Shown piece by piece: positions 2,460 to 8,139 of a stretch of DNA of 32,534 bases. Under the pieces are notes generated by a model, which saw only the letters and a program-made list of their open reading frames with translations, ran no database searches and had not been told where the DNA came from. The stretch is from Patescibacteria group bacterium (GTDB lineage Bacteria; Patescibacteriota; Minisyncoccia; GCA-002772825), in the NCBI GenBank assembly GCA_024654625.1, contig JANLHB010000006.1, positions 1-32,534 on the forward strand, written 5' to 3'. Every line of letters begins with the position of its first letter. The stretch's first letter is position 1. A program made the position numbers and the translations under genes.

Positions 2460-2465
2460 ATTTTA
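2460..2465 (-). promoter_or_regulatory. -10 box of tspO (leaderless layout)
   Basis: TAAAAT on the minus strand, preceded by TGT (extended -10), 6 nt before the ATG at 2453. Confidence 0.5.
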
Positions 2466-2511
2466 ACAGAGAACTGCCGGGAATGATATTAAAAATTTAA
2501 TGACTGGTGGC

Positions 2512-3180
2512 TTACACCCAATGTATGGGCTTCTCACCTCTGGAAGTAAGATATGTGTTCGTCTTACTGAAGTGCTTACAACCGAAGAAGCCGGAGTGGG
2601 CGGAGAAGGGTGCGCTGCCTTGAGCACTAAGTGCTTCTTGTCGTCTATTATCTTCCCTTTCTCTTCGGCGTATTTCCCCCAGAGGAGGAACACCAACCCC
2701 TCCTTCTCGTCGGAGAGCTTCTTGATGACAGCGTCGGTAAATTCTTCCCAGCCTCTCCCTTTGTGCGAGGCGGGGTTGTTGGCCTCTACCGTCAGGATAG
2801 CATTTAGAAGCAAGACCCCCTGCTTGACCCAATGTTCCAAGTTGCCCGTCTTCGGTATCGGCAGTCCGAGGTCGCTGTTGGAGCTCTTTGTAGATATTCT
2901 TCAGAGAGGGAGGTATATCTACACTGTCCGGCACGGAGAAAGAGAGCCCGTGCGCTTGCCCCTTTCCATGGTAAGGATCTTGCCCAAGGATGACGACCCG
3001 GACTTTGCTAAAAGGGCAAAGGTTAAAGGCGCTAAAGATGGACTTGGACGGAGGGCAGATAGCCTTCGTCTTGCATTCGTCTTTCACAAATTTCGCAATC
3101 TCTTCAAAATATGACTTTTTAAACTCGTCTGCCATCACCTCCTTCCACTCAGGGTCAATTTTTATATCTGTCGGGTTCAT
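2512..3180 (-). pseudogene. ung: Uracil-DNA glycosylase with two compensating frameshifts
   Basis: The N-terminal part matches family 1 UDG: the catalytic GQDPYHG, then QAHGLSFSV and PPSLKNIYKEL. After KEL the frame shifts because of one extra base at 2880/2881. The expected sequence (GNLEHWVKQGVLLLN, then VFLLWG and KAAHPSP) continues in another frame. At 2602-2608 a CTTCTCC heptamer is present once where two tandem copies would restore HPSPFSAHSGFFGC. The last ~30 residues (SGFFGCKHF to RGEKPIHWV) are back in the first frame. The two indels (+1, -7) cancel, so an uninterrupted ORF of ~225 codons exists, but about 90 internal residues, including the HPSP loop, would be nonsense. The likely start is the ATG at 3180 with GGAGG just upstream. 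Either a decaying gene or sequencing/assembly errors. Confidence 0.85.
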
Positions 3181-3199
3181 ATCCTCCACTTTAGCATAT

Positions 3200-7575: not shown

Positions 7576-7634
7576 GTCAGTATTAATTTTAACTTAAATT
7601 TATCGATAAGACCATATGTAAACGAGTGGGGAAA

Positions 7635-7651
7635 CTCCGCGGGCAGGGATC
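7635..7651 (-). repeat. Copy of the tRNA-Asn 3' end
   Basis: CTCCGCGGGCAGGGATC matches the acceptor/T-arm end of tRNA-Asn (7819-7835) at 16 of 17 bases. The match starts in the T-loop and runs through the discriminator base, the segment that tyrosine integrases typically duplicate. No integrase gene lies in the 167 bases between the copies. Confidence 0.5.
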
Positions 7652-7780: not shown

Positions 7781-7800
7781 AAAAACCCCCGAAATGGGGG
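7781..7800 (-). terminator. Terminator of tRNA-Asn
   Basis: On the minus strand CCCCC-ATTTC-GGGGG is followed by TTTTTGATTTTTT. It lies 18 nt past the tRNA discriminator base. Confidence 0.75.
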
Positions 7801-7818
7801 GGGTAAGATTTTTACAAG

Positions 7819-8139
7819 CTCCGCGGGTAGGGATCGAACCTACGACCAATTGGTTACATTTATCCTAAAGTTTCCTAAAGGGATGGACTATATCATCACC
7901 CGTTTCAATTAAAATTAAAACTGGGGTGCGAGGCGCTTCGACCGCAACATGCGGGCTACTCCCTTGCGGGATAGTCTCTACACCTTCCCTAAGTCATTTT
8001 CATGACTGGGCTCGGCTCGGGATTACCTTATTTTAAAAAAATTTAGGCTTCCCCGAATTCACCTCGTTTTCATTCCTAAGTTTCCTTAGGAAGCTGCGTT
8101 TGTCCACAGCCAACTGCTCTACCTCTGAGCTACCGCGGA
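7819..8139 (-). tRNA. tRNA-Asn(GUU) interrupted by a group I intron
   Basis: Exon 1 (8139-8106, 34 nt) and exon 2 (7856-7819, 38 nt) join to a normal 72-nt tRNA. It has acceptor TCCGCGG with CCGCGGA, D-stem GCTC with GAGC, anticodon stem GTTGG with CCAAT (one G-U), T-stem GTAGG with CCTAC, and discriminator G as expected for Asn. The loop reads CTGTTAA, placing GTT at positions 34-36. The intron splits the anticodon between U35 and U36. No CCA is encoded. This is the only tRNA gene I see in the window. Confidence 0.93.
7857..8105 (-). ncRNA. 249-nt group I self-splicing intron (IC3-like)
   Basis: Exon end GGCTGT pairs with internal guide GCAGCT (8097-8092), giving the conserved U-G pair at the 5' splice site, and the intron ends in G. 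P2 is a perfect 8-bp TTCCTAAG hairpin with a GAAA loop (8073-8092). The P element holds GAATTCGGGGAAGCCT (8045-8060) and the Q element AATCCCGAGCC (within 8008-8027). A GTCAT-GAAA-ATGAC hairpin (7993-8006) suits P6a. R (TAGAGACTAT, 7971-7980) and S (GATATAGTCC, 7885-7894) form P7. These match the core of bacterial tRNA introns. No homing-endonuclease ORF fits inside, so mobility would need help in trans. Confidence 0.93.

Follow-up and report, generated by a model that had tools for sequence, protein, structure and literature searches.

A group I intron interrupts the anticodon of the only tRNA-Asn gene found in a Patescibacteria genome, at a site split in many other bacteria and in phage contigs

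Organization of the split tRNA-Asn gene

The window (the whole stretch of DNA analyzed, 32,534 nt) contains at positions 7819–8139, on the minus strand, a tRNA-Asn(GUU) gene interrupted by a group I intron. The following features were identified at this locus:

8106–8139, minus strand: 5′ exon of tRNA-Asn(GUU), tRNA positions 1–35, ending in GGCUGU (U35); ARAGORN on joined exons
7857–8105, minus strand: group I intron of 249 nt, terminal guanosine (omega-G) at 7857; RF00028 match and fold z-score
7819–7856, minus strand: 3′ exon of tRNA-Asn(GUU), U36 to discriminator G73; CCA not encoded
7785–7804, minus strand: terminator-like hairpin with T run, 14 bases 3′ of the tRNA end; pattern scan, consensus match only

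Analysis with cmscan revealed one RF00028 match above the curated cut-off of 50 bits (7864–8115, minus strand; 81.6 bits, E 1.8e-19). This match covers the full model (all 253 positions), confirming the group I assignment proposed in an earlier sequence-only reading of this DNA. The region of the 5′ exon also gave a weak RF00005 match (8082–8139). When the two exons (8139–8106 and 7856–7819) were joined, ARAGORN identified a 72-nt tRNA-Asn(gtt) with a complete cloverleaf; removal of the 249 nt thus restores the tRNA, as had been claimed. The placement of the splice site between U35 and U36, within the anticodon loop, also held, since moving the junction by a single base produced another or an undefined anticodon in all eight cases (8/8). 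ARAGORN reported zero tRNA genes in the whole window, as is to be expected of a tRNA gene with a 249-nt insertion.

The predicted fold of the intron is more stable than expected by chance (z = −5.45; 0 of 200 shuffled sequences equally stable), and the chance expectation for the 3′ exon pattern with the preceding terminal G in the window is 0.00. No endonuclease gene is present within the 249-nt intron. A single weak promoter match before the tRNA (8197–8170) was rejected, the number of matches being no higher than in shuffled sequence.

The 3′ end of tRNA-Asn is repeated directly over 20 nt (90%; 7632–7651 and 7816–7835), the second copy lying 184 nt downstream of the gene. A genome of the same genus (G001) contains a degenerate additional copy of the 5′ half of tRNA-Asn, upstream. 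Both may be remnants of an insertion or a partial duplication of sequence at this tRNA gene.

Structure and covariation of the intron

The intron contains the pseudoknotted P3–P7 core with its R and S elements, with helices P4–P6, P7, P8 and P9 arranged as is usual for group I. The pairings were examined by aligning 28 related introns from tRNA-Asn genes, with slid pairings as controls; four sequences with a wrongly assigned guide were left out. The structural elements are listed below (percentages, canonical pairs; fractions, pairs with compensatory changes):

8093–8110, minus strand: P1, exon GCUGU (8110–8106) paired with guide GCAGC (8097–8093), U35·G at the splice site
8073–8092, minus strand: P2 hairpin with GAAA tetraloop; 79%, 8/8
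8060–8066, minus strand: P3 5′ strand, partner 7935–7929; 98%, 3/7
8016–8057, minus strand: P4–P5; P4 (8057–8052/8021–8016) 99%, 5/6
7982–8016, minus strand: P6/P6a/P6b arm; P6 100%, P6a 89%, P6b alignment unreliable
7972–7976, minus strand: P7 5′ strand (R, GACUA), partner S (UAGUC, 7890–7886); guanosine-binding helix
7960–7971, minus strand: P7.1 hairpin, UCCC-GCAA-GGGA; 94%, 3/4
7942–7954, minus strand: P7.2 hairpin; 80%, 5/5, slid controls change too
7897–7928, minus strand: P8 hairpin; 92%, 4/5
7862–7884, minus strand: P9 hairpin with GAAA loop; outer stem 69%, RF00028 alignment

Covariation in the 28 relatives supports P2, P3, P4, P7.1 and P8, with P3, P4, P7.1 and P8 standing out clearly from the slid controls. 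P7 is invariant (100% canonical) and hence uninformative by itself; it is also present in the RF00028 alignment. The alignment was too poor to count pairs in P6b and in the interior of P9. The P1 loop is only 8 nt long.

Relative to the RF00028 consensus, the intron has an additional segment of ~34 nt comprising P7.1 and P7.2. Both hairpins follow P7 and precede the 3′ strand of P3, as in subgroup IA, of which such hairpins are the mark; the tRNA introns of Azoarcus and Synechococcus belong to subgroup IC3. This arrangement suggests that the core is IA-like and not IC3. The same P7.1/P7.2 pair is found in many CPR relatives, and the corresponding region looks different in the cyanobacterial, Saccharibacteria, Clostridia and proteobacterial forms.

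tRNA genes of the genome and an intron-free site within the genus

The assembly (831,245 bases in 47 contigs) contains one group I match, with zero group I introns outside tRNA-Asn. Apart from the split gene, 36 tRNA genes scored above the Rfam cut-off, and ARAGORN, run on the retrieved loci, assigned them to 19 amino acids, Asn being the sole one absent. A second intact tRNA-Asn gene, which would have spoken against the sequence-only reading, was not found in the 47 contigs with Rfam, ARAGORN or a 3′-half pattern (which matched the split copy only), although a copy in an assembly gap is conceivable. Since no Asn gene occurs among the 36 others, splicing is presumably essential, in line with the prediction that expression of this tRNA would depend on it.

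The same genome also encodes a tRNA-Ile(UAU) (G000 C24:52640–52713), alongside just two tRNAs with a CAU anticodon, and may therefore read AUA by the UAU anticodon and not by a lysidine-modified tRNA-Ile2. Elsewhere in the window (2463–3189, minus strand), homology to uracil-DNA glycosylase extends across two overlapping frames (2512–3189 and 2463–2840, with PF03167 on the second), which suggests a frameshift or a sequencing error.

The sequence-only reading had proposed a search for intron-less relatives with the same flanks, and one was identified: genome G001 carries an intact, intron-free tRNA-Asn gene (contig C56; RF00005, 70.4 bits) immediately downstream of a gene sharing 82% identity with the FMN-reductase-like neighbor in the window. 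The presence of the intron at this locus therefore varies within the genus, and a tree fits either its gain or its loss. The tRNA-Asn genes of G001 and the window differ mainly in the anticodon stem, a pattern that would be compatible with co-conversion of the flanking exon sequence during homing. G001 contains group I introns at other loci, three of them within about 900 bases of a 23S rRNA gene (L042, C40, 960–1877) and one beyond this cluster (L043, 806–997).

Distribution of introns at U35/U36

The 3′ exon with its preceding terminal G was used as a search pattern, and the matches were then paired with a 5′ half. The pattern occurred in at least 115 stretches in a collection of one genome per species and in 114 in a viral collection (IMG/VR). 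At least 160 split tRNA genes were extracted, a number that includes near-identical copies (distinct introns, at least 139). At least 133 of them are tRNA-Asn(GUU) genes cut at U35/U36, and the rest are mostly tRNA-Lys genes. Among the matches listed, the CPR hosts include Magasanikbacteria, Uhrbacteria, Nealsonbacteria, Buchananbacteria, Falkowbacteria, Doudnabacteria, Saccharibacteria, Kaiserbacteria and Peregrinibacteria; the other hosts include the cyanobacteria Microcoleus, Tychonema and Hormoscilla, as well as Clostridia, Omnitrophota and phage contigs. Examples of the split genes scored above the RF00028 cut-off (Saccharibacteria 93.6, Buchananbacteria 93.0, a viral contig 92.4, Falkowbacteria 82.0 and Microcoleus 76.5 bits). 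Those from Clostridium and Sphingomonas and one viral example fell below it, and were recognized by their tRNA halves and guide alone. A search for similar introns on plasmids yielded none.

Within the phylum of the window, 380 genomes were sampled and a group I match was obtained in 181. One genome of this phylum, G054, has an intron that agrees in length and ORF with the one in a Doudnabacteria genome, which points to Patescibacteria as the phylum. The split-Asn pattern was present in at least 34 and the intact-Asn pattern in at least 66 of the 380, both numbers being lower bounds because the patterns miss many variants. The earlier view of Asn as an unusual host is contradicted by these numbers. 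None of the 380 genomes contained both patterns, which indicates that intron-bearing sole copies are the rule.

On two IMG/VR contigs (L207 and L238), introns of split tRNA-Asn and tRNA-Lys genes encode a PD-(D/E)XK-like endonuclease (PF11645 for L207, E 3.7e-25). A split tRNA-Asn gene of a Diapherotrites archaeon (L055) harbors a LAGLIDADG gene; this intron may be of the archaeal type and not group I.

Guide pairing and proposed splicing pathway

Comparison of short unique introns at U35/U36 revealed that the guide base opposite anticodon position 34 changes with the host gene. Opposite G34 (Asn) it is C in 68 of 70 introns; opposite C34 (Lys CUU), G in 5 of 5; and opposite U34 (Lys UUU and few others), A in 6 and G in 4 of 12. 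That the guide base tracks base 34 supports the view that each ribozyme acts on its own host gene.

The position, fold and guide pairing of the intron can be read directly from the DNA, and the following splicing pathway would be consistent with them: (i) the precursor RNA folds the P3–P9 core and a guanosine docks in P7; (ii) GCUGU at the end of the 5′ exon pairs with the guide GCAGC, U35 forming a U·G wobble; (iii) the exogenous G cleaves 3′ of U35; and (iv) U35 attacks after the terminal G of the intron (7857), so that the ligated exons would form the anticodon GUU.

HNH endonuclease genes in related introns

Related introns of ~510–710 nt mostly contain an ORF of about 100–137 aa (~105 aa), which starts 5–50 nt past the 5′ splice site and ahead of the guide, i.e. 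in the P1 loop. The carriers, introns of 513–710 nt, include L130 (Falkowbacteria), L095 (Doudnabacteria), L307, L308, L138 and L087. The predicted proteins share the conserved pattern C-x2-C ... FHH ... C-x2-CH, as in HNH nucleases, and matched Pfam HNH with E values of 5e-4 to 8e-4 (20.0 and 20.7 bits, below the curated cut-off of 21.4). Four of these introns (L130, L095, L307 and L308) interrupt the same gene at the same bond as the window intron, show ~70% ribozyme identity to it and are related to it in the tree. They differ from it in the P1 loop, which carries an HNH gene of 100–137 aa, whereas that of the window intron has 8 nt. The observation that no endonuclease is encoded is therefore correct for the window copy, but does not extend to its family.

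In a tree of 28 ribozymes the window intron falls into a set of nine (support 100/99), six of which carry the HNH gene; the most plausible interpretation is a mobile lineage in which the window copy lacks the endonuclease. This copy probably lost the gene, although the tree, in which endonuclease presence switches eight times or more, fits gain as well as loss. The P1-loop endonuclease is the presumed driver of homing, whose targets would be tRNA-Asn genes without the intron. As regards the features of a homing intron, the window copy lacks its own endonuclease gene, and the intron-free allele at the same locus is present in a close relative. The HNH gene was also sought as a free-standing copy in the genome of the window, in a search run without a positive control, and none was found.

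Discussion

Taken as a whole, the comparisons leave little doubt that the anticodon of this genome's apparently only tRNA-Asn is interrupted by a group I intron, presumed to be self-splicing, which belongs to a widespread lineage at U35/U36. A different reading would make it the relic of a group I intron in a tRNA gene that is itself being lost, with Asn codons served by another tRNA gene elsewhere. A missing gene is conceivable in an assembly of 47 contigs, but the exons make a perfect tRNA, P3, P4, P7 and the guide are intact, a second tRNA-Asn was not found in the assembly, and split and intact genes never occurred in one genome among the 380 sampled; decay is accordingly regarded as highly improbable. 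It also seems unlikely that splicing requires a protein (a host splicing factor or maturase) and would fail with naked RNA. Some group I introns do rely on host proteins in vivo (PMC3984707), but the full group I core, the guide and the terminal G are all present here, and protein help would leave the group I classification unchanged.

A separate proposal concerns descent and is compatible with the self-splicing tRNA-Asn intron favored above: an IA-like lineage may have entered tRNA-Asn from phage introns, separately from the IC3 tRNA introns. The odds for it are slightly less than even. In its favor are the P7.1 and P7.2 hairpins that separate P7 from the 3′ strand of P3, the split tRNA-Asn genes on IMG/VR contigs and a stretch of ~31 nt around R and P7.1 that is 94–97% identical to sequences of Vibrio, Klebsiella and Edwardsiella phages, several of these sequences carrying an HNH endonuclease annotation. 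Yet the similarity to phages covers few nucleotides, which are under functional constraint, the IA-like character was judged from the hairpins, and the IMG/VR contigs may include host DNA.

Group I introns in bacterial tRNA genes have long been known, their hosts being cyanobacterial tRNA-Leu(UAA) and tRNA-fMet, tRNA-Ile(CAU) of Azoarcus and others, and tRNA-Arg(CCU) (PMC3984707, PMC8450103). Like these, the window intron is a small ribozyme in the anticodon loop, with U as the base at its 5′ splice site, and its guide pairs with the anticodon stem-loop; it differs in its host (tRNA-Asn(GUU)), its site (U35/U36) and its IA-like hairpins, as against IC3 in Azoarcus and Synechococcus. The cyanobacterial tRNA "group I introns" of 22–49 nt (PMC5733544) are far below ribozyme size and were set aside as not comparable. 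Some CPR tRNAs were reported in 2021 to contain group I introns and to be difficult to detect (PMC8172020), and a 2025 preprint concerns group I introns in tRNA genes of Patescibacteria, i.e. in the same phylum and class of host gene as the window intron (Nakagawa et al., bioRxiv 10.1101/2025.07.03.662931, cited in PMC12641178). A description of tRNA-Asn(GUU) split at U35/U36 was not found in the published, mainly open-access papers searched.

The window intron thus adds one more case to a familiar class of elements and is not an oddity, since its site is common to many bacteria and phage contigs. Of most interest are the breadth of the U35/U36 site, the HNH gene in the P1 loop and the IA-like structure. 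Tentatively, and with the balance still against it, these might reflect a single widespread and undescribed IA-like family at U35/U36 of tRNA-Asn(GUU) (and tRNA-Lys), moved by the P1-loop HNH endonuclease among CPR bacteria and phages, and routinely occupying the only tRNA-Asn of its host. Standard tRNA finders miss such split genes, as ARAGORN did here, so many CPR genomes will seem to be without tRNA-Asn. An essential tRNA made solely via a ribozyme would be a clear-cut example of a host made dependent on a selfish RNA, and a lineage at one bond, with and without the endonuclease, would be suited to testing how homing introns settle after the loss of mobility.
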